From assembly GCA_021287005.1 (NCBI GenBank), contig JAJTBH010000002.1:1-35531 (forward strand): a stretch of DNA of 35,531 nucleotides, read 5' to 3'. Source of the DNA: Anaerolineae bacterium. GTDB lineage: Bacteria; Chloroflexota; Anaerolineae; Anaerolineales; Anaerolineaceae. Under the pieces are notes generated by a model. It had not been told where the DNA came from. It made no database searches and worked only from the letters and a program-made list of their open reading frames with translations. Position 1 is the stretch's first letter. Each line of letters opens with the position of its first letter. Of the stretch, positions 12,264-35,531 are shown one piece after another. The position numbers were made by a program, and so were the translations under genes.

Positions 12264-12758
12264 ATGAAAGAATTATTAAAAGACCCGTTGGAAGTTGATG
12301 ATGTTGAATTTGACCGCCAAAAAAGCCTGTATTTAATGATCAGAGAACAGATTACGCATGAAGATGAATTAATTAACGAACGCATCGGTTGGAGTTTAAC
12401 ATCACAAGGTTTTTTATTTATCGCTTACACCGGGTTATTAAATCTGGACATCAAGTCGGTTGTATTTGGCGCTTTTTTACCATCAATCATCGCTTTTTTA
12501 GGCATAATTTTATGTCTTACGGCTTACAGCGGTGTGGCTTCGGCGATTGCGTCACTGGAGCGTATTCATAAATACGCAAGGGAAAGATTTAACATGGATG
12601 TTGATGGTGGAATAAATATGAAGTTCCCATATATATCCGGAGCCGATGCCCTCTCATGGAATAAAATATTTGGGGCGAATGTGGCTATCAGATCCATCCC
12701 AATATTGTTCAGCGCGGCCTGGTTGTTATTATTCTGTGTTCCTTTTTTTATTAAGTAA
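12264..12758 (+). CDS. Uncharacterised small membrane protein (three predicted membrane segments)
   Basis: I do not recognise a named family with certainty. The 164-residue protein has a charged N-terminal helix of about 45 residues (rich in D, E, R, K) followed by INERIGWSLTSQGFLFIAY, which leads into the first membrane segment. A second segment follows near residue 75-95, then a cytoplasmic-looking stretch with basic residues and a last hydrophobic segment at the C-terminus. The ERIxW...QGxLFxAY pattern is one I associate with small uncharacterised bacterial membrane proteins, without known function. It is monocistronic, has a GGGGGA SD and a TATAAT upstream, and ends before a strong hairpin. 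Divergent from phnS, it need not be linked to phosphonate use. Confidence 0.75.
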   Translation: MKELLKDPLEVDDVEFDRQKSLYLMIREQITHEDELINERIGWSLTSQGFLFIAYTGLLNLDIKSVVFGAFLPSIIAFLGIILCLTAYSGVASAIASLERIHKYARERFNMDVDGGINMKFPYISGADALSWNKIFGANVAIRSIPILFSAAWLLLFCVPFFIK

Positions 12759-17091: not shown

Positions 17092-17334
17092 GGTGTGAAA
17101 TTACCCGGTTAATAAAAAATATAACGATATAAACCGTTCAGTTTTCAAATAACGTTTAAATTTCCTCTACTCATCTGCGCCCGGTTTTATTATTCCATTC
17201 GATTTTTTATGTGCGGCGTTTATCAACACGATCTGAATTTTCGAAAGTTATTTTCAGGCAGATCAGTATCATAAAACCCATCGCCAATCAATTGTTACGA
17301 TTATTGGATATTATCTTCCTTCGTTTATCCGCTT

Positions 17335-18504: not shown

Positions 18505-18575
18505 AATATCCCCCACAGATAAACGAATCCTTTTATTATTTTAAACCGCAGTGCAATAAATTACCAGACCATCTT

Positions 18576-18609
18576 TTCAGGGAGAACGTCGGAAAGCGCT
18601 CTCCCTGAA
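18576..18609. terminator. Hairpin downstream of the ABC exporter operon
   Basis: A perfect 10-bp stem (18576-18585 with 18600-18609) lies just past the exporter stop codon. No U-run follows on the minus strand, so termination may be weak; mRNA 3'-end protection is an alternative. Confidence 0.45.
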
Positions 18610-18620
18610 TACAATGTGGC

Positions 18621-20540
18621 TTAACGTACCCCCTCTTCCAGTCCCTGATCAAACTGGGTATGGTAAAGATGCGCATACAAGCCGTTTAATGCCAGCAGAT
18701 CGGCGTGTTTGCCCTGTTCCACAATTCGCCCGCGATCCATCACCAGTATTTTATCGGCAGCCAGAATGGTGCTGAGACGATGCGCAATCACAATGCTGGT
18801 GCGCCCGGCCATCACCCGTTTAAGCGCCTCTTGAATCAGGCTTTCCGATTCGCTGTCCAATGAACTGGTGGCTTCATCTAACACCAGAATGCGCGGGTTT
18901 TTAAGGATTACACGCGCCAGAGCGATGCGTTGTTTTTCACCGCCGCTCAAACGGTAACCGCGCTCGCCCACCACGGTGTCATATCCGGCAGGCAAGTCAC
19001 AGATAAAATCATGAATATTGGCCGCCTTCGCCGCCGCCTCAAGCTCAGCCTGGGTGGCATTCAGACGGGCATACAACAAATTGGTGCGAATGCTGTCATG
19101 GAAAAGGTGAGTCTCCTGGGTGACCATACCGATCTGGCTGCTCAACGAATCGAGGTTTAAATCGCGCAGGTCATAACCGTCCAACAAAATGTGCCCCTCG
19201 CTGGGGTCATACAGACGCGGCACCAGGTAAGTGAGCGTGGTCTTACCCGCCCCACTGGGACCCACCAGCGCCAGAAGCTGCCCGGCCTGCACCTCAAAAT
19301 CGATATGCTCCAACGCCGACTCGCGCGCCTGGCTGCGCCCGCTCGTTACCGTACGGGTCTCGGCGTCCGACAAAACTGCCTGCACATCCGTCATGCGTCC
19401 AAAACGGCGCACCTCGCTTAACATGCCATCGGCGTTAACTTCATATTTAAAAGAAACGTCCTCAAAACGCAAATTTCCAAAACAATCTTGCAATATCAGT
19501 GCAGAGGGTTTTTCGCTAATTTCCAACGGCAGGTCTAACACCTCAAAAACTCGCTCAAAACTGACCACCGAGGTGGCAAATTCGACCGGCGCTCCGGCCA
19601 GGTCTTGCAACGCGGCATATAAAACCCCCAGATATGAACCAAAAGCCACAATGGTACCCACGGTAAATGCACCCTGAATAACAAAATACCCACCCAGGCC
19701 ATAGACCAGAGCCGTGCCAAATGCGCTCACCAGGCCGATCACGGCAATAAAAAAACTGGTGCTGACCGCGCGCAAAACGCCCAGGCGGCGCACCTCACCG
19801 GCACGTTCTTCAAAACGACCGACCTCATCACGCGAACGGCCAAAGAGCTTCACCAATAAAATTCCACCGATATTAAGCGTTTCCATCATCATGGCATTCA
19901 TGCGCGCGTTGGCATCCATCTGTTGGTGGGCCACATCCCGCAAATGATCGGCCAGGCGGCGCGCCGCCAGAATAAAGAGCGGCATAAACACCAGGCTGAT
20001 CAAAGTCAGGCGCCATTCCATTGAAAACATGACGATACCCACCCCCACCGCCTGAATCAGGTTGGTGATGATATCCACAATGGTGTTGCTGATGGCATTT
20101 TGCGCGCCGATTACATCATTATTTAAGCGGCTCATTAATTCGCCCACACGCGTATTGGTGAAAAAACGCAGTGACATACGCTGTAAATGCGAATAAAGCG
20201 CCACACGCAGATCGTAAATTACTCCTTCTCCCACCACCGTGTTTAAACGCCGTTGAAAAACAGCAACCAGTCCGCTGATGGCCGGGATGCTCAACAAACC
20301 CAGAGTCAACCAGGCCAGGCGCTGCAAATCACCACCGGGGATGGTGTGATCGATCAATTCACGCAGGATTAAGGGGGTTAATAATGAAAGCCCCGTATGC
20401 GTCAGGATCAATATCAACATACCGGTTATCGACCAACCATACGGGCGGGCATAGGCCAATACGCGCCGTAATAATGGCCAACTCACCTTTGGTTTTTCAT
20501 CAGTCGCATGCATAAAAGTATGCCAGTTACCACCGTGCAT
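18621..20540 (-). CDS. ABC exporter half-transporter (MdlB/MsbA/LmrA type)
   Basis: The 639-residue protein has an N-terminal six-helix exporter domain (first helix GMLILILTHTGLSLL, coupling region FFTNTRVGELMSRLNND) and a C-terminal ATPase. The ATPase has Walker A GPSGAGKTT, signature LSGGEKQRIALAR, Walker B ILVLDEATSSLD and H-loop IAHRLST, all intact. It should work as a homodimer that exports lipids, drugs or peptides; the cargo is unknown. An unusual loop of about 40 residues lies between the aromatic FKYE strand and LEHIDFEV in the ATPase domain. I choose the ATG at 20540, which has GAGG five nt upstream, over a GTG at 20546. It lies 30 nt downstream of an HD hydrolase gene and is probably co-transcribed with it. 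Confidence 0.92.
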   Translation of the reverse strand: MHGGNWHTFMHATDEKPKVSWPLLRRVLAYARPYGWSITGMLILILTHTGLSLLTPLILRELIDHTIPGGDLQRLAWLTLGLLSIPAISGLVAVFQRRLNTVVGEGVIYDLRVALYSHLQRMSLRFFTNTRVGELMSRLNNDVIGAQNAISNTIVDIITNLIQAVGVGIVMFSMEWRLTLISLVFMPLFILAARRLADHLRDVAHQQMDANARMNAMMMETLNIGGILLVKLFGRSRDEVGRFEERAGEVRRLGVLRAVSTSFFIAVIGLVSAFGTALVYGLGGYFVIQGAFTVGTIVAFGSYLGVLYAALQDLAGAPVEFATSVVSFERVFEVLDLPLEISEKPSALILQDCFGNLRFEDVSFKYEVNADGMLSEVRRFGRMTDVQAVLSDAETRTVTSGRSQARESALEHIDFEVQAGQLLALVGPSGAGKTTLTYLVPRLYDPSEGHILLDGYDLRDLNLDSLSSQIGMVTQETHLFHDSIRTNLLYARLNATQAELEAAAKAANIHDFICDLPAGYDTVVGERGYRLSGGEKQRIALARVILKNPRILVLDEATSSLDSESESLIQEALKRVMAGRTSIVIAHRLSTILAADKILVMDRGRIVEQGKHADLLALNGLYAHLYHTQFDQGLEEGVR

Positions 20541-20570
20541 TTTCACCTCATCAACTTATTTTAAATCAGG

Positions 20571-21146
20571 TTAATTTTCATCCTCGCCGACAAACTGGCG
20601 GTATCGTTTAATTTTCTCGGAAAGGCGGGCTGCCAGACCGGCGTGAGCACCGTGCAGGGCTTCATAAATAATGATGGCTTCCTGGCGATAGGACTCTATT
20701 TTGGCGGGAGTCCAATAAAAGGGCGGATAATACAGATTGGTAATGCGGTCTGCCAGTTTTACCATCCATACCTCACGCGGCTGGCGGCGAATGCGCTCCA
20801 GGCTGTCGCGCATCTGGTTTTCCTTATCCGGCAGTGAAACATCTTTGGTTAATGCCAGCACCCCGTCGGCCACCTGCGCGCCGAACTCGTTTTTAAGCAT
20901 GTCATACGTCACAGGCGTATCTTCAATGACATCATGCAATAAAGCGCACTGCACCGCCAGGTCGCCATCCACATCGGGCGTCTGCGCCAGCGCATGCAGC
21001 ACTTCCATAGCCACACTGCCAATGTGATTGATGTAATCGATTTGTTCCTGTGGTTCAGCGCCGCCATAGGTCTGACCGTGGTGGTAACGGGTGGCATAAT
21101 GCCAGGCTTTTAAGTAAACATCCGGTGACCATTGTTTGTTTGTCAT
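20571..21146 (-). CDS. SpoT/MESH1-like HD-domain hydrolase
   Basis: The 191-residue protein has only the HD phosphohydrolase domain of the RelA/SpoT group: HHGQTYGG near residue 22, His41 in NHIGSVA, ALLHDVIEDT with His71-Asp72 and Glu75-Asp76, then EFGAQVADGVLALTKD and VKLADRITNL. This order matches the (p)ppGpp hydrolase domain of SpoT and stand-alone small alarmone hydrolases, which need Mn2+. No synthetase domain is present. The substrate could be (p)ppGpp or another nucleotide. The start at 21146 is set by AAGGAG 7-8 nt upstream. The gene precedes an ABC exporter with a 30-nt gap. Confidence 0.85.
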   Translation of the reverse strand: MTNKQWSPDVYLKAWHYATRYHHGQTYGGAEPQEQIDYINHIGSVAMEVLHALAQTPDVDGDLAVQCALLHDVIEDTPVTYDMLKNEFGAQVADGVLALTKDVSLPDKENQMRDSLERIRRQPREVWMVKLADRITNLYYPPFYWTPAKIESYRQEAIIIYEALHGAHAGLAARLSEKIKRYRQFVGEDEN

Positions 21147-21274
21147 AAGTTTTTCTCCTTCAATGCTCACAGTTAATTTTACCCCTCTCTTTGCAGCCAA
21201 TCAGAGGGGAGAAAAGCAGAATAAGTATGCTGTTTTACACAATACAGGGGTTGTTTCAGGTGGATGGTGCAAAA

Positions 21275-21308
21275 GACGGGGCGCGGGAACAAAAACACGC
21301 GCCCCGTC
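21275..21308. terminator. Terminator after the topoisomerase A gene
   Basis: An 11-bp perfect GC-rich stem pairs 21275-21285 with 21298-21308. On the minus strand TTTT follows it and TTTTTTT precedes it, so it can stop transcripts from either side. Confidence 0.85.
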
Positions 21309-21316
21309 AAAAAAAG

Positions 21317-23818
21317 CTAAATTTTAACCACACCCGCCACCGGGTCGGCTTCAAACAGATTTCCATTGGCATAACGCGCGCCCAGGTCAATGCCTTTGGT
21401 GGCGCGGGTTACCTGGTTGATATCCTTCACAGCCAGGCGCAGACGGCGGCCCTTCTCCGAATAGATATCCACATCGGCGGTTTCAGGAGCCACAGTTAAA
21501 GCGCCAACCAAACCGGTGCTGTCATTGATCTTCCAAATCTGAACCCCTTGCCCGCCGCGCCCCTGCACGGGGAACTCAAGCAGGCTGATACGTTTAATAT
21601 GCCCGTGTGTGCTGGTGATTAAAACAAATTCTTTGGCCTGCTGCGGCTCTAACAAAACGCCCCCCACCAGTTGATCATCCAACATCTTAATCGCCGCCAC
21701 ACCACGCGCCGAGGGCGTGGCCTGCGGGTTAATGCTGGCAGCTTCAAAACGCAGAGCGCGCGGGGTTGTTTCCTGGCTGCCCGAAGTGCAGATAAACACC
21801 TCGGCTTTATCCGAAGCCACACCCGCCAGCAGAACTTCATCATCCTTACCTTCCAGACCGATAATCGGCGACCAGGCGCCTTCATGGCGGCTGTTCAGGC
21901 AGTCTTCTGTTTTAACACGTTTAACATTGCCGGCGCGGGTGACCAGCACCAGTGAATTTCCCGGTGTGGCTGCGCCGCAGCCGATGATTTCTTCACCCTT
22001 ATCCAGGCCAAGCTCTGTAAAAGTGGCCTGCAAGGGCAGGCGGCCGACATTGGCCTGCCACACGCGCCCGCGGTTGGAAACCAGCAAAAGCGCCTCATCC
22101 GGTTTAACCTGGATGCGTGTCAGGTTAATTTCCACGGCACGCGCCGAAACTTTACCGCGCGGGGTGCTGTCTTTCCAGGTTTTGGCATCGCAGCGCTGAA
22201 TGCCTGTGCGGCTAACCACCACCATCTGCTCTTCGGTGGGAATGACCAGGTCGGCCACAGTAACCCGCGCCTGATGACCGTCTTCATGATCGATAATCAC
22301 CGTGCGGCGTGGATCGGCATATTGTTCTTTAACTTCGTCGGTTTCCTGAATCACCACCTGCAAACGACGATCTTCGGAAGCCAGAATTTCTTTTAATTCC
22401 TTAACCCGCGCTTTTAATTCCTTCTGTTCGTCTTCCAGTTTTTTGCGTTCCAGCGAGGTCAGGCGGCGCAGGGGCATATCCAGAATGGCTGTGGCCTGAA
22501 TTTCGCTCAGGCCGATCTTTTTCATCAGGTTGGCGCGCGCCGTTTCGGTATTTTGAGAATGGCGGATGATATCGATCACCTCGTCGATCATGCTGATGGC
22601 CTTCAGCAGCCCTTCTACAATGTGCAAACGCGCTTCGGCGCGGGTCAACTCATACTGCGAACGGCGGGTAATGACCTCAAGGCGATGACGGATGAATTCA
22701 CTCAGCATTTTGCCCAGGGTTAAATTTTGCGGGCTGGCTTTACCTTCTTCACTCATCACCAACGCCAGGGCGTTATAAGAAAGGCTCGAGCGCATCTGGG
22801 TATGGGTGAAAAGGCGCTCCAGCGCCTCATACGGGTCCACCCCGCGGCCGACTTCAAAAACCACACGCATGCCCTTATAGTCCGATTCATCGCGCACATC
22901 GGTGATGCCCTGGAATTTATCGCGGTTGGAGGCGATACGTTCCAACACCGTGGATTTCTGCACCTGGAAGGGTAACTCGGTCACAATGATTTCGCTCTTG
23001 CCACCGCCAATATCCTGAATGTCGGCTTTGGCCTGGCAGACCAGAGTGGCATTGCCGGTTTCGTAAGCCTGGCGGATCATATCCACCTTGTTTTCGTCGC
23101 CATTCACACGGTAGCGGTATAACAGACCACCGGTAGGCAGGTCGGGACCGGGAATGTATTTTTGTAAATCTTTCACGCTGATCTGGTCGCGTTTTTTCCA
23201 GTTTTTGGCCATATAAACCACGGCGTCACATACCTCGCCGAGGTTATGCGGCAAAATACTGGTCGACATACCCACAGCAATACCGGTGGCGCCGTTTACC
23301 AACAGGTTGGGGAAACGCACCGGCAAAACCAGGGGTTCTTTAAGCGAACCGTCAAAATTAGGAACCCAATTGACCGTATCCCGATCAATATCCATCAACA
23401 TCGACTCGCCCAATGCCGCCAGGCGGGTTTCGGTGTAACGCATGGCAGCCGCGCTGTCGCCATCAATGGAGCCAAAGTTACCCTGGCCGTCAATCAGCGG
23501 TGAGCGCATTGAAAAATCTTGCGCCATGCGCACCATCGCATCGTAAACCGATTGGTCGCCGTGGGGGTGATATTTACCGAGCACTTCACCGACCAAACGC
23601 GCCGATTTTTTATGCGGTTGATTATGCACCAGGTGCATATCGGCCATGGCGTATAAAATGCGGCGCTGCACGGGTTTTAAGCCATCCCGTACATCCGGCA
23701 GGGCGCGATCCAAAATAGTTAACACGGCGTAACGCCGGTAAGCCTGTTCCACAAAGCTATCCAGGGCTTGAACCTGGATGGTCAATTCGTTTCCATTAAG
23801 GGTAGATTCTTCACTCAT
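21317..23818 (-). CDS. Type IIA DNA topoisomerase subunit A (GyrA/ParC)
   Basis: The 833-residue protein has the breakage-reunion domain with the catalytic tyrosine at 128 ([11 protein letters not shown]), the quinolone-site helix [15 protein letters not shown], and the DNA-gate segment [11 protein letters not shown] coiled coil runs near residues 430-490, and the C-terminal beta-pinwheel carries a degenerate GyrA box, QGRGGQG. The pinwheel and box favour GyrA; the lineage-style partner makes ParC possible. Residue 89 is Gln where E. coli GyrA has Ser83. I start at the ATG at 23818 (MSEESTLNG); the upstream SD is weak. The gene lies 19 nt after subunit B and they surely form one enzyme, which introduces supercoils or unlinks chromosomes using ATP. 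Confidence 0.95.
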
Positions 23819-23837
23819 AGGGGCACCCTGTCCTTTT

Positions 23838-26003
23838 CTATTCCTCTTCGTTCCAATCCACATTCATCAACCATTCCTTGCGCGGGCCAACCTCGCTGCC
23901 CATCAGGCGTTCAATCAGCGAACGCGTGGTGTGCAGATCGTCTATGACCATACGCAGGTCGCGCGAAGCGAAATCGGCAACGGTAAGCTGGCGTTCCTCT
24001 GCCTCGCGTACCCTGCTTTTTTTGCCTTTGCCGCCCATTCCCTCCGGCAGCACAAATACGGTTTCGCGCAGTTGTTCAGGGTTCATTTCACCCAAACCTT
24101 TATAACGTTGAATGTTCAACGGATCGTTTTTCCATTCTTTTTCAATTTCGGCGCGTTCTTCTTCACTGTAGGCATATTGCTCCTGGCGGGTCTTGCTGTT
24201 ACGCACCAGGTAAAGCGGAGGGCGTGCCACATAAAAACGCCCCGCTTCAATTACCGGGCGCATGGTGCGCCAGAAAAGAGTCGCCAGCAGGGTGGCAATG
24301 TGGCTTCCATCCACATCGGCATCCACCAACACCGAAACGCGTCCATAGCGCATGGCATCCACGTCGCAATCGGCGCCCACGCCGGTGCCTACGGCAGCAA
24401 TGATGGCGGCAATTTCTTTGTTTTTTAAGATTTCATTGATATTCATCTTTTCCACATTGGGAATCTTGCCGCGCAGGGGCAAAATGGCATGGTAACGCGA
24501 ATCGCGCCCCTGTTTACATGAACCACCGGCCGAATCACCCTCAACCATATAAATGGCGGTGTATTCAATGGGCACCACCGGGTTGCCGCCGCGGCGCTGA
24601 ATATCGGCCAGCTTGCCCAGCACAAATTCACCGGCGTCCATGGCCGATTTTTTAATCACCAGCTTGCGCGCCTGGGCTGCGGCCTCACGCCCGCGGGCAG
24701 CCGCCACGGCCTGGTTGACAATCACTTTGCCCACCGGGATATTTTTTTCAAGATAATCACTCATATAACCATAAGTGCCCGAAAAAACTGGCCCGTGCAC
24801 TTCAGGGCTGGTCAGGCTTTCTTTGGTTTGTGAGAGAAACTGCGGCGTACTCGTCATGGTGATTTTAACCACAGCGGTCAGCCCCAGCAGGGCATCATCT
24901 CCGCGCACATCTTCTTCACCCTTAATTAATTTTTTGGAAGAGGCAAACTGCTTAACGGCCTTGGTCAAACCGCCTTTAAAGGCGGTGACGTGCGTGCCGC
25001 CCAACGGGGTGGGAATGGCATTTACAAACGAATAAATCTGGGTGTCCTCACCGGCATACTGCAAAGCAATTTCGGTTTCAACCGAAGCTTTAATACCTTC
25101 CACCTCAATCTCGCCGCTTTCTTTAAACACAATCGGTTTATGCAGTGGGCTGAGACCTTCGTTAAGGTAAGCCAGATAATCGGATAAACCGTTTTTGGAA
25201 TAATAAATCCTGGTTTCCGGTTTGCTTTCGCGCTGATCCAAAAACTCGATGCGCACGCCCGGGTAAAGATGGGCAATCTGGCGAAAACGGTTATCAAGCC
25301 GGGTGGCATCCCAGGGCACATAATTATCGGGGTCGCGCCACTCCATTTCATGGGCAAACCAGGCGCGGTTGGGGCGAAAACGCAAACTCGTGCCACTGCT
25401 CATTTCAGCATCGGCTTGAACGGTCACTTTTTTGCCGTTGACCTTGAGCGACTGGCAGATTTCCTTGCGCCCGCTGGTAATCAGGGTGGTCTCGGCGTTA
25501 ATCTCGCCCACTTTAGCTCCGCTGGCGTCAAAAATTTCAACCTCGCCTTGCGGAATGCCGCCGTTTTCAAAACGCTGGCGGAAGAACAAACCATGCCGGC
25601 GCACTTCCACCTCAAGATAAGCTGAAAAAGCGTTGGTACATTTTAAACCGATACCGTGCAGACCACCCGAGCTGGAATAAGCCGAATCGTCGCCGCCAAA
25701 TTTGCCCCCGGCGTGCGGTTTAACCAACACCTGGGTTAAGGCGCTCATGGCGCTTACGGGTTTAAAGTCAATGGGAATGCCGCGGCCGGCATCATTAACG
25801 GTAACGGCGCCGTCTCTGGCAATATTTACTTTAATGGTCGAGGCGAACCCGGCCATACATTCGTCCACCGAGTTATCCAGCACCTCAAGCAAAATGTGGT
25901 GCAGCCCGTGCACATTGTTATTACCAATATACATGCCCGGGCGGCGGCGCACCGCTTCAAGGAATTCCAACTCAATAATCTGATCGGCACTATATCTCGT
26001 CAT
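23838..26003 (-). CDS. Type IIA DNA topoisomerase subunit B (GyrB/ParE)
   Basis: The 721-residue ATPase subunit shows the GHKL N-terminus ([40 protein letters not shown]), the transducer domain, and the TOPRIM domain with [17 protein letters not shown] and metal-binding VDADVDGSH. The C-terminus reads [12 protein letters not shown]. The GHKL part differs from ordinary GyrB and ParE at several places (for example [16 protein letters not shown]), so it may be a lineage-specific paralogue. The ATG at 26003 has GGAG about 9 nt upstream. A good promoter lies at 26075-26103, and the gene leads a two-gene operon with subunit A. Confidence 0.95.
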
Positions 26004-26074
26004 GCATTTATCTCCATCAAGGTTAAACCGGTGCACACCAACCGCAGCCGGAAATTATTTTACGATATAGAACA

Positions 26075-26103
26075 ATTGTACTACAACGTTTTCATTATTT
26101 CAA
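26075..26103 (-). promoter_or_regulatory. Sigma-70-type promoter of the topoisomerase operon
   Basis: On the minus strand TTGAAA (26098-26103) and TACAAT (26075-26080) are exactly 17 nt apart. The transcript would begin near 26068 and have a 65-nt leader before the subunit B start codon. Confidence 0.65.
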
Positions 26104-26186
26104 TTGGCTTTATAGCCCCCGCAATTATACCGCTTAGCAGCCCACATCTGGCAATTTGTCGGCGCATACACCCCCATTATAAAAGA

Positions 26187-26216
26187 GAACATCCCTTACG
26201 CCGATAAAGGATGTTC
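26187..26216 (-). terminator. Terminator of the 107-aa gene
   Basis: GAACATCC (26187-26194) pairs with 26209-26216. On the minus-strand RNA the stem extends through a U-G wobble to 12 bp with a 6-nt loop and is followed by TCTTTTATAA. Confidence 0.7.
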
Positions 26217-26278
26217 CTTCGTGATACAAAACGGCAATGAATACCGGTAAATTATATTAAAAATTTGCCTCAAAAAAA

Positions 26279-26602
26279 TCAGGCTGCATTTAATTCCGAT
26301 TTACCTGCTTCGCTATAAGCGCGCATACCGGTTACACGTGTGGCCTGTGCATTGGCGCGGACCTGGTCTGCGGCGGCATATACCTGGCGGCTTTCATTTT
26401 GTTGTAATTTATCCAACAACTGTGCGCCTTGCGCCCGGCTTTCATTTTCGCCGACCTGCATCCGGCGCGATTCGAGGGCTTCGGTTGTTTTGTTTTCATT
26501 TTGTTCCGGCGCCGTCTGTGTTTTTGGTTTCACCTGGCCGACGCCATTATTTGCTAAAGCGGCATTTGCCTGTGACACATTCATATTAACTGAACCAATC
26601 AT
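26279..26602 (-). CDS. Uncharacterised 107-residue Ala/Gln/Asn-rich protein
   Basis: I do not recognise the family. The protein has no Cys, Trp or Phe, no signal peptide and no membrane segment. It is rich in Ala, Gln, Asn and Glu. The N-terminal part (about 1-40) looks disordered and the rest helical, with EALESRRMQVGENESRAQGA and LLDKLQQNESRQVYAAADQ having heptad-like spacing. GAGG lies 4 nt before the ATG at 26602; a second ATG at residue 7 is possible. That the gene is real is strongly supported by a perfect consensus promoter upstream and a hairpin terminator downstream, making it a monocistronic, probably well-expressed unit. It is divergent from the Hsp20 genes. Confidence 0.72.
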   Translation of the reverse strand: MIGSVNMNVSQANAALANNGVGQVKPKTQTAPEQNENKTTEALESRRMQVGENESRAQGAQLLDKLQQNESRQVYAAADQVRANAQATRVTGMRAYSEAGKSELNAA

Positions 26603-26649
26603 AATACCTCACACTTAGACCCAATAATTAGACTTGTTTTATCAAAATT

Positions 26650-26678
26650 ATTATAGGACGCCCCTTCGGGCCTGTCAA
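26650..26678 (-). promoter_or_regulatory. Consensus sigma-70 promoter of the 107-aa gene
   Basis: The minus strand reads TTGACA (26673-26678), a 17-nt spacer and TATAAT (26650-26655), matching both hexamer consensus sequences exactly. The spacer contains a GC-rich dyad (GCCC/GGGC near 26660-26670) that could be a repressor site. The start point would be near 26643. Confidence 0.8.
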
Positions 26679-26865
26679 CTTACAGAACCGTTAGGAAAGA
26701 GTAATGAAACGCCCAAATGCCATGTATACAATCCTCTAATATTCCTTTTTTGTTTTTCTTATAGATCGTTATCAAAAATCTTATCGACCCGGCATAGAAT
26801 AAACATTGTAAAAACATTAACCCAATAACCATAACCTGATGGAAAAATAACAGGAGGTAAAAATT

Positions 26866-27297
26866 ATGTTTAGATATTATGTTCCCCCAACTTTCCGCGA
26901 CCTTGACCGAATGCAGCGCCGCATGGAACGTATGATGAATGCTTTTTCACCCTACAACAATGAGCCCGCCGGTTACCCGGCCCTGAATGTATGGGTCAAG
27001 GATGACGATATGATCGTCACCGCCGAACTGCCCGGTTTCACCCCGGAATCAATCAACCTGTCGGTGATGGGCAACAACCTGACCCTCAGCGGCAGCCGCG
27101 CCGAAGAGGATCTGCCCGAAGGCGCCAAATATCATCGCCGCGAATGCGTTAGTGGTGAATTCAACCGCACCATTCGCCTGCCCTACAATATTGACCCCGA
27201 AAAAGTGGAAGCCTCTTTTGATAAGGGCCTTTTAACCATCAAACTGGCCCGCGCCGAAGCGGATAAACCGCGCAAAATTAATATCAAATCAAATTAA
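26866..27297 (+). CDS. Hsp20 small heat-shock protein, copy 1
   Basis: This 143-residue ATP-independent holdase has a short N-terminal arm with FRDLDRMQRRMERMM and an alpha-crystallin domain (about 40-135) containing AELPGFTPESINLSV and the family signature ASFDKGLLTIKL. It ends with an I-x-I-like INI for oligomer contacts. It should bind unfolding proteins in the cytoplasm during heat or other stress. AGGAGGT lies 7 nt before the ATG. It leads a tandem of three Hsp20 genes. No CIRCE or other recognised heat-shock operator was found upstream. Confidence 0.95.
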   Translation: MFRYYVPPTFRDLDRMQRRMERMMNAFSPYNNEPAGYPALNVWVKDDDMIVTAELPGFTPESINLSVMGNNLTLSGSRAEEDLPEGAKYHRRECVSGEFNRTIRLPYNIDPEKVEASFDKGLLTIKLARAEADKPRKINIKSN

Positions 27298-27313
27298 TTA
27301 GAGGAGGTATGCC

Positions 27314-27718
27314 ATGACTGACAAAAATCTTGATGTAACCAAACAGGAAGTGGATATGGCTGAGGGCGTTGAACGTACGCGCTCCCGCCGGGCATATATT
27401 CCGGCAGCCAGCATCTATGAAAGTGAAGACAAAGTGGTGGTCGTCGCCGATTTACCCGGTGTGGATGAACAGGCCGTCGACATCACCCTTGAGAAAAACG
27501 AATTAACCATCAGCGCTTACGTTGAAGCGCGCCAGCCCGAAGGCTATACTCTGGCCTATGCCGAATACGAATCCGGCGATTATCGCCGCACTTTCATCCT
27601 CTCGGATGAAGTAGATCGCGACAATATTGAAGCCAGTGTTAAAGACGGCGTCTTGCGCCTGGTTTTACCCAAAGCGCCCGACTTTAAAGCCCGCAAGATT
27701 ATGGTCAAAGCGGGATAA
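27314..27718 (+). CDS. Hsp20 small heat-shock protein, copy 2
   Basis: This 134-residue alpha-crystallin-domain protein begins 16 nt after the first copy, with GAGGAGGT before the ATG, so the two are co-transcribed. Core motifs are VADLPGVDEQAVDITLE and the signature ASVKDGVLRLVLPK. It lacks the arginine-rich N-terminal arm of copy 1 and instead has an acidic start with an RTRSRR patch. The proteins are divergent rather than recent duplicates, so mixed oligomers or different clients are possible. Confidence 0.94.
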   Translation: MTDKNLDVTKQEVDMAEGVERTRSRRAYIPAASIYESEDKVVVVADLPGVDEQAVDITLEKNELTISAYVEARQPEGYTLAYAEYESGDYRRTFILSDEVDRDNIEASVKDGVLRLVLPKAPDFKARKIMVKAG

Positions 27719-27730
27719 AACAGAAAATAA

Positions 27731-27765
27731 CGTGCCGGTCGGAAAAGTTTATTCCGACCGGCACG
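27731..27765. terminator. Hairpin between Hsp20 copies 2 and 3
   Basis: A perfect 14-bp GC-rich stem (27731-27744 with 27752-27765) has a 7-nt loop. No U-run follows, so it may attenuate or protect the upstream mRNA rather than fully terminate. Confidence 0.55.
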
Positions 27766-27800
27766 ATCAATCGAATTTTATCAAAAGGAGGTAGGTTACC

Positions 27801-28307
27801 ATGACACTCAATCATCTCATTCCCTGGAAACGATCAGAGAAATTGCCAGTACGCAGACAGGAGGCTGACTCATTCCTTCAATTGCGAGACGAAATGGATC
27901 GCATGTTTGAGAGCTTTTTTGAACCCCCCTGGAGCCTGCGTCCATTCGAGCCGTTTGAATCCAACTTTTCCGGCTTTATGCCCAGCCTGGACGTCAATGA
28001 AACCGACAAGGACATTAATGTTACGATTGAATTACCCGGCCTGGAAGACAAAGACATTCAACTTTCCCTGGAAAATAATGTTTTGACCGTTAGCGGTGAG
28101 AAAAAATTTGAAAAACAGGAAAAGAAAAACAACTTCCATCGGCTGGAACGTTCCTACGGTTCCTTCAGCCGCCAGGTGGCCTTGCCCTGCGATGTTGATG
28201 AAGACCGCGTTTCCGCCGTCTTTAAGAATGGCATTCTGAACATCAGCCTGCCCAAATTGCAGGCCAACAGCTCGCAAAATAAACGCATTGTCGTTAAACG
28301 CGGCTAA
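27801..28307 (+). CDS. Hsp20 small heat-shock protein, copy 3
   Basis: The longest of the three, at 168 residues, it has an N-terminal arm with LRDEMDRMFESFFEPPW, typical of class A bacterial Hsp20, then VTIELPGLEDKDIQLSLE and the signature AVFKNGILNISLPK. The C-terminus is KRIVVKRG. AAGGAGGT lies 8 nt before the ATG. It is separated from copy 2 by 82 nt and a strong hairpin, so its level may be set separately. A strong terminator follows. Confidence 0.95.
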   Translation: MTLNHLIPWKRSEKLPVRRQEADSFLQLRDEMDRMFESFFEPPWSLRPFEPFESNFSGFMPSLDVNETDKDINVTIELPGLEDKDIQLSLENNVLTVSGEKKFEKQEKKNNFHRLERSYGSFSRQVALPCDVDEDRVSAVFKNGILNISLPKLQANSSQNKRIVVKRG

Positions 28308-28330
28308 AAGCCGGTCACAAAACGAACAAA

Positions 28331-28365
28331 AACAATCCGCCCGGTCATCGGGCGGATTGTTTTAT
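28331..28365. terminator. Terminator after the Hsp20 cluster
   Basis: A 13-bp perfect stem (28331-28343 with 28349-28361) closes a 5-nt loop and is followed by TTTTAT. It also faces the convergent end of the sugar operon, with an A-run on the other side. Confidence 0.88.
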
Positions 28366-28381
28366 AAAAGCATTTTAAAGT

Positions 28382-29197
28382 CTAGCGAGTTTTGCGGAAC
28401 GAATTTACCTTGTCCATAAAAAGTTTAACCCGGTTTTCGTCAACATGATTTTCAAATTTACCATCATATTTAAAGGTTGTACCGACCACGGCGCCGTCGG
28501 CAATACTTAACTGCTCAACCACATTATCCAGGCGTACGCCCGTGTTGGCAAACACCACCGTATCGGGCACAGCCTTTTTCACTCTGCTTAACACATTGGC
28601 GTCGGTCTGCGCGCCGGCTGTCAGGCCGGAAACGCACAGGGCATCGGGACGATGGTTAAACACGGTGGTTTTGGCAATTTCATCAATTTCGCGTTCGGCC
28701 AGATACTTGGCCGCTTCAGGCACGATATTAAAAAACAGTTTAACCTCTTCGGCATGAATGGCATGTTGGTGGCGCACAATTTCGCCGCAATTCGGATTCC
28801 AGAGTCCAAAATCGCTGGCATAAACGCCCGAGAAAATTTCGCGCACAAATTTGCCGCCCGTGGCAACCGCCAGGTCCAGCGAGGCTTTGGGGTCCCACAA
28901 TACATTAACGCCAAATGGAATACGAATTTCTCCCAATAATTCGCCAATTACCCGTGCCATGCAGGCCACGGTAACGGTCGGCACCGTGGTCAGGTAAGGC
29001 ATGCTGAACTCGTTTGAAAACATGACTGCATCCACACCGCCATTTTGCAGAGCCATCAGGTCTTTACGCGCCCATTCAATTACTTCTTTCATACCGGTCT
29101 TTGAGTTGTAATAGGGGTCACCCGGCAAAGAACCCAGGTGACACATGGCAATAATTGGTTTTTCAACATTAAAAATTTCTTTAATACAATTTCCCAT
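28382..29197 (-). CDS. BtpA/SgcQ-family TIM-barrel protein
   Basis: This 271-residue protein matches the BtpA/SgcQ family throughout: IIAMCHLGSLPGDPYY, GVDAVMFSNEFSMPYL, FGVNVLWDPKASLDLAVATG, ALCVSGLTAGAQTD and VFANTGVRLDNVVEQL. It is predicted to be a TIM barrel with a phosphate-binding end (DGAVVGTTFK). The cyanobacterial member affects photosystem I stability, and SgcQ lies in an E. coli carbohydrate locus; no reaction is firmly known to me. Here it is the last gene of a sugar importer/kinase operon, which favours a lyase, epimerase or aldolase acting on a phosphorylated sugar. GGAGA lies 7 nt before the ATG at 29197. Confidence 0.88.
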   Translation of the reverse strand: MGNCIKEIFNVEKPIIAMCHLGSLPGDPYYNSKTGMKEVIEWARKDLMALQNGGVDAVMFSNEFSMPYLTTVPTVTVACMARVIGELLGEIRIPFGVNVLWDPKASLDLAVATGGKFVREIFSGVYASDFGLWNPNCGEIVRHQHAIHAEEVKLFFNIVPEAAKYLAEREIDEIAKTTVFNHRPDALCVSGLTAGAQTDANVLSRVKKAVPDTVVFANTGVRLDNVVEQLSIADGAVVGTTFKYDGKFENHVDENRVKLFMDKVNSFRKTR

Positions 29198-29242
29198 TTT
29201 TTCTCTCCACAAATCTAAATTAAAATAAATTCTTAAAACTTT

Positions 29243-30778
29243 TTAAGCCATTAAAGAATCTGATAACCGATGCATTAAAGGTTTGGTCGTTTCATACAAA
29301 TCGCGGAAAATCTGATAATTAAGTTCATACAATTTGCCCGCTTCCGGGTTGGGTCGAATTTCCTGCTTTACCTTCACCCACTGGTTAATCTGCGAAAGAT
29401 TCTGGTATAAACCCACGCCGGTGGCTGCCAAAAAAGCATCCCCATAACTGGCCCCAATTTGCTGATCCGGAATGGTCAGGGTTATGCCGCATACGTCCGC
29501 AACAATCTGCATCCATAATGGGTTTTTGGTTCCGCCACCCACCGCCAGAATACGTTTTGGAGAAACACCCTCTTTAGCCATTTCTTCAAAATTATGCCGA
29601 ATGCCAAAAGCCACCCCTTCCAGAATGGCGCGGTAAATATCGGCACGTGTATGGCTGAGGCTCAAACCAAACCAGACACCTTTGGCCCGTGGGTCATGGA
29701 TGGGCGTACGTTCGCCCTCAAAATACGGCAGGCTAATTAAACCCTTTGCTCCGATCGGCGATTCAGCAGCCATTTTGGCCAATTCTGCAAATGTATTTTC
29801 GCCGCCTTGCAATTCATTTTTGACTTCCAGTTGCGCAAACTGATTACGGAACCAGGTGGTCAGGCTGCCGGATGTAGACATGCCGCCCAAAAAGGCAAAA
29901 CTGTCCGCTTCCAAAAAATTTGAACTCCAAAATTTTTGGGTCTTTACCAGGCTGGCAGTTTTCATAATGAAGAAAATACTGCTGCCAAACATTAACATCA
30001 TATCGCCCACATCGGCCACGCCGGTGCTGAGGGCTTCAGCGGCGGCATCGGTGGTTCCGGCCACAACCGGGGTTCCTTCAGCCAGACCGGTTTCCCTGGC
30101 TGCATCGGCGCTGACTCTGCCCACAATTTCGTGGCTCCAATAGGCCTGCGGCAGCCTTTCAAGGGGGGTTATTAATTCAGCCGCGTTATCCAGCCATTTA
30201 CGCTGGTAGACATCATACAGCGGGCAGTAACCCCCGGCCGTGTAAATATCAATGGTGGCCTGACCGGTTAATTTATGCACCAGGTATGCCTCACTGGTTA
30301 AAAACCAGCGCGTTCTGGCATATATTTCGGGCTCATTGTTGCGAATCCACAACACTTTGGGCCCGGAAGCCTGTGAACTTAAGCGTGAACCGCTTATTTT
30401 AAAGATTTCCGACTCTCCCAATTCCTTTTCAAGATATTCAATCTCTTTTCCGGCCCGGCTGTCAATGCCATACAAAATACCGGGTCGCAGGGCATGCCCT
30501 TCCGCATCTATCGGCAACACGCAGGATCCAATCGCACTGGTTCCTATTCCCAAAATCTGGTTGGATGGCACAGCGCTTTTTTGCAGCAAGTTTTTAACAA
30601 TCTCAACAAAATCATGCCACCAAACCTTATCGGCATCATGCTCAAAAAAGCCGGGTTTGGGTTTATCCATGCCGTGCTCCACCGTATGGCTGTTTAATAC
30701 AACACCATCTGCCGTAACCAGAACGCCTTTTGAAGAATAAGTTCCGATATCAACACCGATCAAATATCCTTTTGCCAT
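29243..30778 (-). CDS. FGGY-family carbohydrate kinase (xylulokinase-like)
   Basis: The 511-residue kinase has the N-terminal phosphate-1 motif IGVDIGTYSSKGVLV, the catalytic-base region VVAGTTDAAAEA, the FGGY signature region (GARGL-like IGAKGLISLPYFEGERTP, LSLSHTRADIYRAILEGVAFG) and the adenosine site AVGGGTKNPLW. It should phosphorylate a sugar, polyol or ketose with ATP. FGGY members use many substrates (xylulose, ribulose, glycerol, fuculose, autoinducer-2), and none can be chosen from sequence. GAGGG lies 7 nt before the ATG. It lies between the M29-like hydrolase and the BtpA-family gene in the importer operon, so it probably acts on the imported compound. Confidence 0.92.
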   Translation of the reverse strand: MAKGYLIGVDIGTYSSKGVLVTADGVVLNSHTVEHGMDKPKPGFFEHDADKVWWHDFVEIVKNLLQKSAVPSNQILGIGTSAIGSCVLPIDAEGHALRPGILYGIDSRAGKEIEYLEKELGESEIFKISGSRLSSQASGPKVLWIRNNEPEIYARTRWFLTSEAYLVHKLTGQATIDIYTAGGYCPLYDVYQRKWLDNAAELITPLERLPQAYWSHEIVGRVSADAARETGLAEGTPVVAGTTDAAAEALSTGVADVGDMMLMFGSSIFFIMKTASLVKTQKFWSSNFLEADSFAFLGGMSTSGSLTTWFRNQFAQLEVKNELQGGENTFAELAKMAAESPIGAKGLISLPYFEGERTPIHDPRAKGVWFGLSLSHTRADIYRAILEGVAFGIRHNFEEMAKEGVSPKRILAVGGGTKNPLWMQIVADVCGITLTIPDQQIGASYGDAFLAATGVGLYQNLSQINQWVKVKQEIRPNPEAGKLYELNYQIFRDLYETTKPLMHRLSDSLMA

Positions 30779-30803
30779 GTTTTTACCCTCAAGATTTTAT
30801 TTA

Positions 30804-31871
30804 TTAAATCAGGAACTTGCCTTTTTGATAAATCAATTTATCATCCAGGTAAATCTCACCTTCCTGGCGCATATCTTTCACAATATCCCAGTGAATGGAA
30901 GATTGATTGGTGCCACCCACTTTCGGGTAGGCCCTGCCCAACGCAACATGGATGGTTCCATCAATTTTTTCATCCAACAAAATATCTTTGCTGAAAAACT
31001 TTAATTCCGGATTGGTGCCGATGGCAAATTCGCCAATCAGACTGGCGCCGGGGTCGGTATTAATCACGGACAGCAAAAAATCTTGATTGGTGGAAGATGA
31101 AGCCTCCACCAGTTTTCCCATTTCCCAGCGCAAACGAATATCGTGCATCAATCGCCCGCCCAACACGCCGGGGAAGTCAAAATAAATATAACCGTCAATC
31201 GTGCTTTCTACCGGCGCCGTTTCTATTTCACCATCGGGCATATTCCAACCGCCATCGGCCACATCCCATACACGCCCTTTGAACGAAAAGCTCAGATCGG
31301 TGCCCTTACCGACCACGCGAATGCGTTCGCCCTTATCCAGCACTTCGGCCCATTGCCGCCATTTTTTGCCACAGGCCGGCCAATCCAACAGACAGGCATT
31401 AAAGAACATATCCATCATGGTTTCTTCATCCACACCGGCCTGGCTTGCCAGCGCCGCATTGGGCACACGCAATAAACACCAGCGTGTTTTTTGCCAGCGC
31501 ATGGTTGAAATTTTACCCATTGCCTTACGGAACAGAGAAAGTTTATCGGCCTCGACATCCCAAAAAACATCCAGGTTATGAGCACCGCGCAAACCAAAAT
31601 AAACGTCGGCCCATTCCATGCCATAGGCTTCAATTTCCGGCACCCACCCAATCTGATCACGATTGCCATGCTTAAGCACCAGCCTGTTTAACTCTTCTGA
31701 CAGAAACTGCACCTGGGGATACGCCCCGGCTTTAATACAGGCTTCATAAATAGCATGCACCAGGGGATATGTTTCCAGTTCCACAAATGCAATCATCACT
31801 TTTTCGCCCGGTTTAACCACGGCCGAATGATTAACCAGAAGATCCCCTAACTGAGCCCATCTTTTATCCAT
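30804..31871 (-). CDS. M29-family metallo-aminopeptidase-like protein
   Basis: The 355-residue protein aligns with M29 aminopeptidases (AmpS/PepS, aminopeptidase T): an N-terminal Rossmann-like half (LLVNHSAVVKPGEKVMI) and a C-terminal catalytic half. The metal-ligand motifs NMPDGEI, GEFAIGTNP, GTIHVALGRAY and SSIHWDIVKDM appear intact, so it should be an active two-metal enzyme. It is shorter than the roughly 400-410 residues common in the family. Its place between a sugar-type permease gene (28-nt gap) and an FGGY kinase (25-nt gap) is unusual for a peptidase and suggests it cleaves an amide or amino-acyl group of the imported compound. That is inference. GGAGG lies 7 nt before the ATG. Confidence 0.88.
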   Translation of the reverse strand: MDKRWAQLGDLLVNHSAVVKPGEKVMIAFVELETYPLVHAIYEACIKAGAYPQVQFLSEELNRLVLKHGNRDQIGWVPEIEAYGMEWADVYFGLRGAHNLDVFWDVEADKLSLFRKAMGKISTMRWQKTRWCLLRVPNAALASQAGVDEETMMDMFFNACLLDWPACGKKWRQWAEVLDKGERIRVVGKGTDLSFSFKGRVWDVADGGWNMPDGEIETAPVESTIDGYIYFDFPGVLGGRLMHDIRLRWEMGKLVEASSSTNQDFLLSVINTDPGASLIGEFAIGTNPELKFFSKDILLDEKIDGTIHVALGRAYPKVGGTNQSSIHWDIVKDMRQEGEIYLDDKLIYQKGKFLI

Positions 31872-31899
31872 CTTATCGCCTCCAGATCATAGGATTGAA

Positions 31900-32937
31900 T
31901 CATCTCTGCATTTTTCGATCATGCAGGAAATAATTAAGTACAAAAATAAAAATCATCAAAATCCCCCAGGAAAAGTCTTTAAAGAAGGAACTGCCGCGCA
32001 TGCCCATCAGGAACATATGAAAACCGGTCGACAGAACCTGTAAAATAACGATGGCAATAAATATATTTAACACACTGCCAAAGCCGGGAATAATATTGGC
32101 CAGAACACAGATTAATATGGTCAACATAACAAAAGTGGTTGCCCCGTATTCATATGCAGCCGACATGGTGCGGCTCATGGTTAAAACGCCGGTAACGGAA
32201 GCAAAAATACCGCTAATGATATAAATCTTCATTAATACGGCTTTATTATTAATTCCCGAAAAATTGGATGCAATCGGGTTGGTGCCCATCATACGCACCT
32301 GAAAGCCAAAAGGAGTCTGGAACAACAATATATAGGTAAGCAGGGTGACGCATAAAAACACTATAAACGGGATGGGAATTCCCAGAAAACTTTGAGAGCC
32401 GATCACCGATAGTTGGTCCGGAAACCCGGTTACAGTGGCGCCTTTTGTCAGACCGGTTGAGATGCCTGTAAAAAATGTCATGGTTGCCAATGTCGCCAGA
32501 ATCGGCGGCACGCCCACATACCCCACCAGCAATCCGTTTACAACACCGGTAATTGCACCAACTACCAGGGCGATAAACAGAGCGAGGATGACGAATAAAC
32601 CCATCTGCTCGGGAGAAACATCCTTTGGAACAATTTTCACCAAAAAAAGACCGGCCAAAACCGCCGACAGGTTGGACGTGGCATTAATCGACAGGTTAAT
32701 CCCCCCGGTCAAAGTTGGAATCATCATCGCCAGGGTTAATATGCCAATTTCCGGAAGCTGAAAAGCCATGGTGCTGATGCTGCGATTTGAAAGAAAATTA
32801 TCTTCCGTGACTCCAAAAAAGATAACCAGCACTGCAAAAACGCCCAATAATAAAAGAGTTTGGCCATCTACTTGAAAATACTTTTTCAGTGCGTTGAAGC
32901 CCTTACCGGTATTAGACAGAGACATTTTAGAATTCAT
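31900..32937 (-). CDS. Sugar ABC importer permease 2 (RbsC/LsrD-like)
   Basis: This inner-membrane protein of about 345 residues has 8-10 hydrophobic segments of the BPD_transp_2 (RbsC) family, with the signature stretch ISTMAFQLPEIGILTLAMMI near the start and LTGGINLSINATSNLSA. I start at the ATG at 32937, with AGGA about 9 nt upstream, rather than a TTG at 32970 that overlaps the preceding stop codon. It is paired with the next permease, indicating a heterodimeric channel as in autoinducer-2 or rhamnose importers. Confidence 0.9.
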   Translation of the reverse strand: MNSKMSLSNTGKGFNALKKYFQVDGQTLLLLGVFAVLVIFFGVTEDNFLSNRSISTMAFQLPEIGILTLAMMIPTLTGGINLSINATSNLSAVLAGLFLVKIVPKDVSPEQMGLFVILALFIALVVGAITGVVNGLLVGYVGVPPILATLATMTFFTGISTGLTKGATVTGFPDQLSVIGSQSFLGIPIPFIVFLCVTLLTYILLFQTPFGFQVRMMGTNPIASNFSGINNKAVLMKIYIISGIFASVTGVLTMSRTMSAAYEYGATTFVMLTILICVLANIIPGFGSVLNIFIAIVILQVLSTGFHMFLMGMRGSSFFKDFSWGILMIFIFVLNYFLHDRKMQR

Positions 32938-32966
32938 AATTTTTTCCTGTTCCCGATTGGTGAAAG

Positions 32967-33971
32967 TCAAATTGTTTCAACGCTTCGTTTGATCCGTTTT
33001 GTCCAATTTAAGCGCAGCGCAGGTAATGAAGTAAACAAGATTAACACCAGACCAACCACCAGTTTTTGCCATTCAATCGGAATGCCGGTCAAAATCAGAG
33101 CCCGATTGATCAACTGGATTAAAAGTACCCCCAACACCGTACCAATCACCGTGCCGCGCCCACCGGTGATGGATGCGCCGCCGATAATAATGGCCGCCAG
33201 AACATCCAGAGGCTGGCCGATAAAAATCACCGGGTTAAACTGCCGGCTTAAGAAGGCCTGGGTAACCCCCGCCACAGCGGAAAAAACGCCCATAATGGCA
33301 AAAAGAATATACAATATTCGTTTGACATTAAAACCTGAGCGAATAGCCACTTCTTTATTGCCGCCAATGGCATAAACGCCGCGCCCAATCGTCGTATATT
33401 TAAGAAACCACCAGATAAATACACCCATCAATAAAACATAAATGATGGACTGGTGTAAACCCGTATCTCCTACAATGGGATCTTTTGCCGTCAAAATAAA
33501 TTGCGAATAATATCCGACGCCGCCTTCGGGCAGGTCAAAATTGGCAGTTGCGCCGATGAAAAAGAGACAAAAACCATACCACATGGTGTTGGTCGCCAGA
33601 GAGACATTAAAAATAGGCAAATTAAAACGATTAACCAGGAATGCATTAATCAACCCCATTAACAAGCCCACCGTGCAGGCGATTACAAAATACAGCAATA
33701 TACCACCTTCATAATGCTGCGAAAGTAAAAATGTATGGGTGGCATAGGCCGATACGGCCGTGATCGCCACAAAGGAAATATCAATTCCGCCGGCAATCAC
33801 AATCGGCAAAATACCAAAAGCCATGATGAAATATACGATCGAAGCGCGCAGGGTATCAAAAAGGGTTGATATGGTAAAAAAGGCCGGATTAATCACACCA
33901 ACCACCAGAGATAAGCCAATTAAAATGAGGAAAACAATAAACTCATTGGTTTTAACGATTTTATTTAACAT
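32967..33971 (-). CDS. Sugar ABC importer permease 1 (RbsC/LsrC-like)
   Basis: The 334-residue RbsC-family permease has about nine membrane segments. Family stretches include IVIAGGIDISFVAITAVSAY, YAIGGNKEVAIRSGFNVKR and ILAA-type AAIIIGGASITGGRGTVIG. AAGGA lies 8 nt before the ATG at 33971. It is 12 nt after the ATPase gene and directly precedes the second permease, so all three should assemble into one importer. The ligand is probably a monosaccharide or a related small polar molecule. Confidence 0.92.
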   Translation of the reverse strand: MLNKIVKTNEFIVFLILIGLSLVVGVINPAFFTISTLFDTLRASIVYFIMAFGILPIVIAGGIDISFVAITAVSAYATHTFLLSQHYEGGILLYFVIACTVGLLMGLINAFLVNRFNLPIFNVSLATNTMWYGFCLFFIGATANFDLPEGGVGYYSQFILTAKDPIVGDTGLHQSIIYVLLMGVFIWWFLKYTTIGRGVYAIGGNKEVAIRSGFNVKRILYILFAIMGVFSAVAGVTQAFLSRQFNPVIFIGQPLDVLAAIIIGGASITGGRGTVIGTVLGVLLIQLINRALILTGIPIEWQKLVVGLVLILFTSLPALRLNWTKRIKRSVETI

Positions 33972-33983
33972 AACAAGATCCTT

Positions 33984-35498
33984 TTAATTGACTTTTTGGG
34001 TGGATGAACCAATCAGTTCGTTATTTAATTCATCTTCCTTAATGGCTTCACGTTTAAATTCTTTATCTATTTTTCCGGAGCGCATTAATAAGATGCGGTT
34101 ACAGGTTTGAGTCAATTCGGGAATATCATCAGAAATAATAATGATGCCCAGGCCCTGCCGGGCAAGATTACGAATGAGTTCATGAATTTCGGCTTTCGAA
34201 CCAACATCCACCCCGACGGTTGGGCCATTTAATATCAAAACTTTCGGATTCATCGCCAGCCACTTGGCCAAAACCACACGCTGCTGGTTGCCGCCCGAAA
34301 GGCTGGTTACCGGCAGGTCGCCTGAGGGTGTTTTTAATTCAAGGCGTTTAATCCATTGATTGGATTCCGTATTTTTCCTGCGGCTATCGATCAAGCCGAA
34401 TTTGTTTAACAACTGGTGCAAAATACCCACCACTATGTTGTTACCAATGGATTGTTCCAGAAAAAGACCTTCACGAATACGATCATCGGGAACAAAACCA
34501 ATCCCCAATTGGATAGCCTGTTTGATCCCGCTTACAATCACTTCCTGACCATCAATATAAACCTTGCCCGATTGAGCCGGAAGCTGGCCAAATAACGACA
34601 GGCCCAATTCGGTGCGGCCTGAGCCCAGCAAGCCGGTAACGCCCAATACTTCGCCGGGTTTTAATTCAAAGGAAACATCCGAAAAACAGTGGGGCAGGGT
34701 TAAAGCTTCAACTTTAAGCCGCGCCGGGGCTGCTTCATCGGGGGCGGAAAATTTAATTTCAGAATTATCAAAATGGCGCCCGGTCATGTTAAATTCCATG
34801 GTGTGAACGTCCATGCCCTGCGCACCTTTATCCATTACCTTTTGGCCGTTTCTGAAAATGACGGTGCGATCTGAAATTTCGGTTACTTCATTCAGTTTAT
34901 GACTTACAAATAATGTGGAAATACCCTGTGTTTTTAATTCGGCAATGACCTTAAAAAGTGCGGAAATCTCTTTTTGCGTCAGCGCCGTAGTAGGTTCATC
35001 CATCACAATAATTCGAGCATTGGATAATAAAGCTTTTACAATGGCAATTAATTGTCGATCGGCAGTGGATAATGTTTCAACAATTGCATCCAGGGGAATA
35101 GAAGAATTGATTTTTTCAAGACCTCTGGCAGCTATCTGGTAAATATCCTTCCAGTTCACCAGTTGTTTACCTGAAGCGACCTGTTGGTTCATTACAAGAT
35201 TTTCAGCAACCGTCAGGTTGGGAAATAAAGAAAAATCCTGATAAATTACTTGAATGCCTTCACGAATGGATTCAAGCGGTGTTAAACGATGGTAATGACG
35301 GCCGTTAATATAAATATCACCTTGATCCGGGCTGTAAACGCCTGAAATAATCTTAATCAAGGTGGATTTTCCTGATCCATTTTCGCCCACCAAGCAACAA
35401 GTTTCCCCTTTGCCAATGGATAAATTTACATCATCGAGAGCCAAAACGCCCCCAAAACGTTTATTAATATGTTCAACTCGGAGGATTTCTTCTGTCAT
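33984..35498 (-). CDS. Sugar ABC importer ATPase with two nucleotide-binding domains (RbsA/MglA-like)
   Basis: Two fused ATPase domains are seen in about 504 residues. Domain 1 has Walker A GENGSGKST, the signature LSTADRQL and Walker B IIVMDEPTTAL. Domain 2 has the family-typical degenerate Walker A GLLGSGRTEL, a canonical signature LSGGNQQRVVLAK and an altered Walker B LILNGPTVGVD, with the Asp-Glu pair replaced by Asn-Gly, so it probably cannot hydrolyse ATP. The ATG at 35498 has AAGGTG about 10 nt upstream; a TTG at 35522 is less likely. It is the first operon gene inside the window. A substrate-binding protein gene is missing and probably lies beyond the right edge. Confidence 0.93.
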   Translation of the reverse strand: MTEEILRVEHINKRFGGVLALDDVNLSIGKGETCCLVGENGSGKSTLIKIISGVYSPDQGDIYINGRHYHRLTPLESIREGIQVIYQDFSLFPNLTVAENLVMNQQVASGKQLVNWKDIYQIAARGLEKINSSIPLDAIVETLSTADRQLIAIVKALLSNARIIVMDEPTTALTQKEISALFKVIAELKTQGISTLFVSHKLNEVTEISDRTVIFRNGQKVMDKGAQGMDVHTMEFNMTGRHFDNSEIKFSAPDEAAPARLKVEALTLPHCFSDVSFELKPGEVLGVTGLLGSGRTELGLSLFGQLPAQSGKVYIDGQEVIVSGIKQAIQLGIGFVPDDRIREGLFLEQSIGNNIVVGILHQLLNKFGLIDSRRKNTESNQWIKRLELKTPSGDLPVTSLSGGNQQRVVLAKWLAMNPKVLILNGPTVGVDVGSKAEIHELIRNLARQGLGIIIISDDIPELTQTCNRILLMRSGKIDKEFKREAIKEDELNNELIGSSTQKVN

Positions 35499-35531
35499 GG
35501 GCTGTTTCACCTTATTAATCAAAACTGTTTG

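Follow-up and report, generated by a model that had tools for sequence, protein, structure and literature searches.

A probable orphan small-protein gene behind an exact consensus promoter in an Anaerolineae bacterium

Introduction

Orphan genes are common, and one that retains all of its expression signals may well specify an authentic, expressed lineage-specific protein. A locus of this kind is found in the draft genome of an uncultured Anaerolineae bacterium related to Levilinea (GenBank assembly GCA_021287005.1; 4.15 Mb, 558 contigs, 87% complete, 6% contaminated). The window analysed is the stretch of 35,531 nucleotides at positions 1–35,531 of contig JAJTBH010000002.1. The question raised by the locus is whether a 107-aa reading frame of no recognized family is a genuine and well-expressed gene and, if so, what kind of protein it specifies. 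The case is a good one because, in the same genome, the exact promoter that precedes the frame is demonstrably that of real genes, including those for rRNA and tRNA.

The transcription unit and its neighbours

A complete transcription unit spans 26678–26187 on the minus strand. The features of the unit and of the adjoining region are as follows.

26650–26678, minus strand: promoter TTGACA-17-TATAAT, exact sigma-70 type consensus, 12/12
26660–26671, minus strand: dyad GCCC-GAAG-GGGC (4 bp) within the promoter spacer, not above chance
26606–26610, minus strand: ribosome-binding site of sequence GAGGT, three bases 5' of the ATG
26279–26602, minus strand: open reading frame of the 107-aa orphan protein, ATG at 26602
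26186–26217, minus strand: intrinsic terminator, hairpin with a 14-pair stem and a U-rich tail
26075–26103, minus strand: candidate promoter of the gyrB/parE-type gene, 10/12

The signals named in a preliminary description of the locus are all present. The promoter agrees with the consensus at 12 of 12 positions (26678–26650), GAGGT lies three bases ahead of the start codon, and the 14-pair terminator folds at -19.1 kcal/mol (z -5.4), a stability that none of 200 shuffled sequences equalled. The leader of the mRNA is about 41 nt long, as counted from the inferred start. The stretch GTGAGGTATTATG carries the ribosome site and runs up to the ATG at 26602. Exact promoters were also described as rare in the window, and this holds. 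The orphan's promoter is the sole 12/12 match among 34 promoter-like sites in 17001–35531, and the window contig (C298) has one exact consensus promoter with a spacer of 16–18, namely this one.

The next minus-strand gene, which starts at 26003, is of the gyrase B/topoisomerase IV (gyrB/parE) type. It has a separate 10/12 site and so need not depend on the promoter of the orphan. On the other side lie three hsp20 genes, transcribed divergently from the orphan. These are consecutive and mutually different, and occupy 26866–28307.

The spacer of the orphan promoter is 82% GC, the highest value among the 46 exact promoters of the genome. Such a GC-rich spacer could reduce or regulate the strength of the promoter. 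The dyad within it had been proposed as a repressor-binding site. The dyad exists; its reading as an operator is not supported, since an equally good dyad occurs in 29.6% of shuffled spacers. Dyads of at least 4 bp are present in 5 of the 46 exact promoters. Inverted repeats in the divergent region between the orphan and the hsp20 genes were limited to a single weak one (72%).

Elsewhere in the window, a 164-aa ORF at 12264–12758 matches nothing in Pfam; its codon score is low (0.031) and membrane stretches appear likely by eye.

Exact-consensus promoters across the genome

TTGACA and TATAAT with a spacer of 16–18 occur together 46 times in the genome, against once for a reversed-pattern control, so that the class lies far above chance. 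Downstream genes were inspected for 30 of the 46. Of these 30, 23 are followed within 350 nt by the start of an ORF that is 100 or more aa long, and a tRNA gene follows two further ones. We take the ORFs, judged by eye without a family search, to include RecA, ribosomal proteins, ValS and many regulators of transcription. Upstream of a 16S rRNA gene, at a distance of 305–797 nt, five of the 46 stand in tandem. The exact consensus is a real promoter class in this genome and the orphan is a member of it. The class is probably also a strong one, given its excess over the control and its position ahead of ORFs, tRNA genes and 16S rRNA.

Two minor observations concern other members of the class. 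The tandem 16S rRNA promoters (G000:C401:18116-18635; L081 3117–3636, minus strand) are spaced about 125 bp apart, and two of them are identical. The genes of two paralogous 72-aa Cys-containing proteins (L048 1777–1992; L050) each have an exact consensus promoter, which is followed by a leader of some 245 nt; the ORF in L050 starts 243 nt past its promoter. The L048 protein gave no match in Pfam.

Coding status of the reading frame

When the 862-base intergenic region was shuffled, an ORF as long as this appeared in 195 of 2000 trials, so length alone is no evidence for coding. Codon content is more informative. The orphan frame scores 0.201 bits per codon and the other five frames are all negative. 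Among 405 equally long segments read in a wrong frame only one attains this score, and 17 of 80 segments from true genes score no higher than the orphan. In a synonymous-codon test the orphan frame exceeded all 5000 draws (20.9), yet the antisense frame scored 24.2, and the test therefore carries no weight. The orphan frame fits coding by its codon content.

The alternative that the transcript of about 450 nt is itself the functional product, as a small regulatory RNA whose enclosed ORF is incidental or of dual use, is unlikely. The promoter and terminator of such an RNA would look identical to those observed; the ORF length is within chance, and protein relatives are lacking, as they would be for an RNA. 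Against this, the codon score, matched by so few wrong-frame segments, fits the frame, and a ribosome site is correctly placed ahead of the ATG. Rfam models gave nothing at gathering level anywhere in the window; the best match in the orphan stretch is at chance level (E 3.4; 15.2 bits, against 39 needed).

The gene is probably real and well expressed. Strong expression had been predicted from the promoter, and this prediction stands in part: the promoter is of the class that serves rRNA and tRNA genes, whereas codon use is average and not of the highly expressed kind, lower than in the three neighbouring hsp20 genes. Codon use itself is accordingly no argument for very high expression.

Search for relatives

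Comparison of the protein with Pfam, NCBIfam, PHROGs, PADLOC and PDB sequences gave chance-level matches or none. The product had been described as belonging to no known family, which this comparison supports. The source genome holds a single copy of the gene. Scans of contigs from GTDB genomes and of viral contigs, as well as of plasmids and phages, revealed no relative.

Within the family (147 genomes, own included) there was one other match, at E 0.018, which was rejected as a relative. It lies inside a larger unrelated protein, presumably kinase-like as read by eye, and is at chance level for that number of genomes. A sample of 400 genomes from the order contained nothing besides the source genome at 0.01. 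In a sample of 400 genomes from the phylum a single other match reached E 0.008, again rejected; about three such matches are expected by chance. It falls in a 227-aa frame that, by eye, resembles a sigma factor. At E up to 1, a set of 101 relatives yielded weak matches in 10 other genomes, the best again at E 0.018. Sensitivity was controlled with the genome's own FlaG, a 115-aa protein of similar size, which at E <=0.05 was recovered in 21 of the 101 (own included), down to 24–30% identity.

The corresponding position in other genomes was searched by tblastn upstream of the gyrB/parE-type gene. Across 14 related loci, several of them from evidently duplicate genomes, the best match had E 0.21 and no relative of the orphan was found; two loci, L074 (a short fragment) and L017 (a 56% relative), had been excluded. 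The closest named genomes by the gyrB/parE-type neighbour are Levilinea saccharolytica (80% identity) and a Levilinea MAG (79%). No genome of the same genus as the source was seen among those searched.

The locus has the two marks of an orphan gene, as no relative was found outside the lineage and the codon score fits a coding frame. Judged from its sequence, this is a taxonomically restricted orphan gene of the ordinary kind in an unusually clean setting, and not a new system. Like the bacterial orphan genes described in the consulted part of PMC1824705, it is short, has no homologues outside one lineage and has no assigned function. It differs from them, as far as that part of the source goes, in its unusually complete expression signals, including the exact consensus promoter. 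Promoter quality may be usable for ranking orphans in uncultured bacteria.

A young or de novo gene is another explanation of the same distribution. Here a non-genic ORF beside a promoter would have become expressed with little or no selected function. No relative besides the source itself is found in 147 family, 400 order and 400 phylum genomes, and in the 14 related loci, which come from other genera, the region ahead of the gyrB/parE-type gene holds nothing alike. The sections consulted of PMC11101190 report that promoter recruitment yields proto-genes in evolving lines of Escherichia coli. Together with the corresponding sections of PMC10697842, they indicate that a ready promoter can drive an adjacent non-conserved ORF, and that a random protein can act on chaperones. 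The orphan resembles these E. coli proto-genes and de novo genes in having no relatives; it differs, from what those sections describe, in a codon use and translation start that fit an established gene. Coding-like codons, the GAGGT site and the terminator jointly suggest an established gene too. Moreover, fast divergence or gene loss leaves the same pattern, and the genomes compared include none of the same genus. Overall, a de novo origin without selected function is not a likely explanation.

The predicted protein and a model for its production

The protein contains 18 Ala, 12 Gln, 11 Asn and 9 Glu among its 107 residues and has no Cys, Trp, Phe or His, in agreement with the Cys- and Trp-free, Ala/Gln/Asn-rich composition noted earlier. 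Its GRAVY is -0.82 and its pI 8.1, and the sequence, judged by reading, shows no obvious transmembrane segment or signal peptide. A single-sequence AlphaFold2 model, made with no alignment, has a mean pLDDT of 76. Residues 1–32 are floppy with one short helix at 12–18, and a long helix occupies residues 33–106; the block from residue 41 on has a pLDDT of 74–95. The model accords with the helical product foreseen in the preliminary description. Single-sequence prediction can over-predict long helices. The hydrophobic periodicity of the helix is not significant, being equally good in 948 of 2000 shuffles, so that a coiled coil is unsupported; an 11-residue repeat is likewise without clear support. 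Foldseek found no match among viral models at E <=0.001; for a single helix this is to be expected.

The explanation we favour, and hold to be moderately probable, is a genuine monocistronic unit for a small protein that is made constitutively, is restricted to the lineage and has a long helix after a floppy N-terminus. Its steps would be as follows. (i) The housekeeping RNA polymerase would transcribe a single-gene unit of about 450 nt from the exact consensus promoter. (ii) Translation would start at the good ribosome site. (iii) Transcription would stop at the strong intrinsic terminator ahead of the gyrB/parE-type gene. (iv) The predicted product is small and soluble and is so far confined to one genome; its N-terminal third would be flexible and be followed by a single long helix that is charged and rich in Ala and Gln. 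(v) Production of the protein may be constitutive and abundant. (vi) The protein would probably be a small partner-binding or structural helical one and not an enzyme.

A bolder proposal is that the protein is newly arisen and private to the lineage, that it ranks among the more abundant proteins by virtue of its rRNA-grade promoter, and that its long charged helix acts on a core process, possibly protein folding. This we regard as quite improbable.

Comparison with stress and flagellar proteins

The divergent hsp20 genes had prompted the suggestion of a stress role. The divergent arrangement is as described; a stress role does not follow from it. The promoter is of the housekeeping type and the orphan is not co-transcribed with the chaperones. 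A scan of the whole window for the CIRCE box, allowing up to three mismatches to the consensus, gave 0 matches, and membership of the HrcA/CIRCE regulon is thus not supported. Nor was the gene found in the rest of the family genomes searched, among them those that carry similar hsp20 genes. The specific form of the idea, a hydrophilin or LEA-like stress protein linked to the hsp20 cluster, draws on a protein that is hydrophilic, predicted to be helical and free of Cys and Trp, and that is encoded next to the divergent chaperone genes. Hydrophilins, as defined in the consulted part of PMC7448490, have more than 6% glycine and a hydrophilicity index above 1.0. The orphan, with 7 glycines in 107 residues (6.5%), lies just above the first value; its hydrophilicity of 0.82 (Kyte–Doolittle, GRAVY -0.82) falls below the second. 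It differs further from the proteins so defined in having no clear 11-residue pattern and no stress-type promoter signal that was found. A hydrophilin-like role is therefore very improbable, and a heat-shock role of the orphan is not indicated.

Small proteins linked to the flagellum are typically free of Cys and Trp, disordered at the N-terminus and helical at the C-terminus, and anti-sigma factors of the FlgM type are of similar size with the same order of disordered and helical parts. The orphan shares this general look, and flagellin, FlaG and FlgM are encoded in the genome. A role as a flagellar export substrate or regulator is nonetheless highly unlikely. The genome has its own separate FlgM (52.4 bits), whereas the orphan gave no match to PF04316 in the Pfam search. 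A sigma-28-like site precedes flagellin, whereas the orphan promoter is of the sigma-70 type. The flagellin profile is matched in 22 of 147 family genomes (21 above the cut-off), whereas the orphan occurs only in its own, where it lies outside any flagellar cluster.

This Anaerolineaceae-related MAG encodes a flagellar system. Its loci (L077 G000:C487; L078 G000:C540) contain FlgK/FlgL-like, CsrA-like, flagellin, FliD-like, FlaG, FliS-like, FlgM and rod-like genes, the names being assigned partly by eye, and large glycosyltransferase-like genes are interspersed among them.
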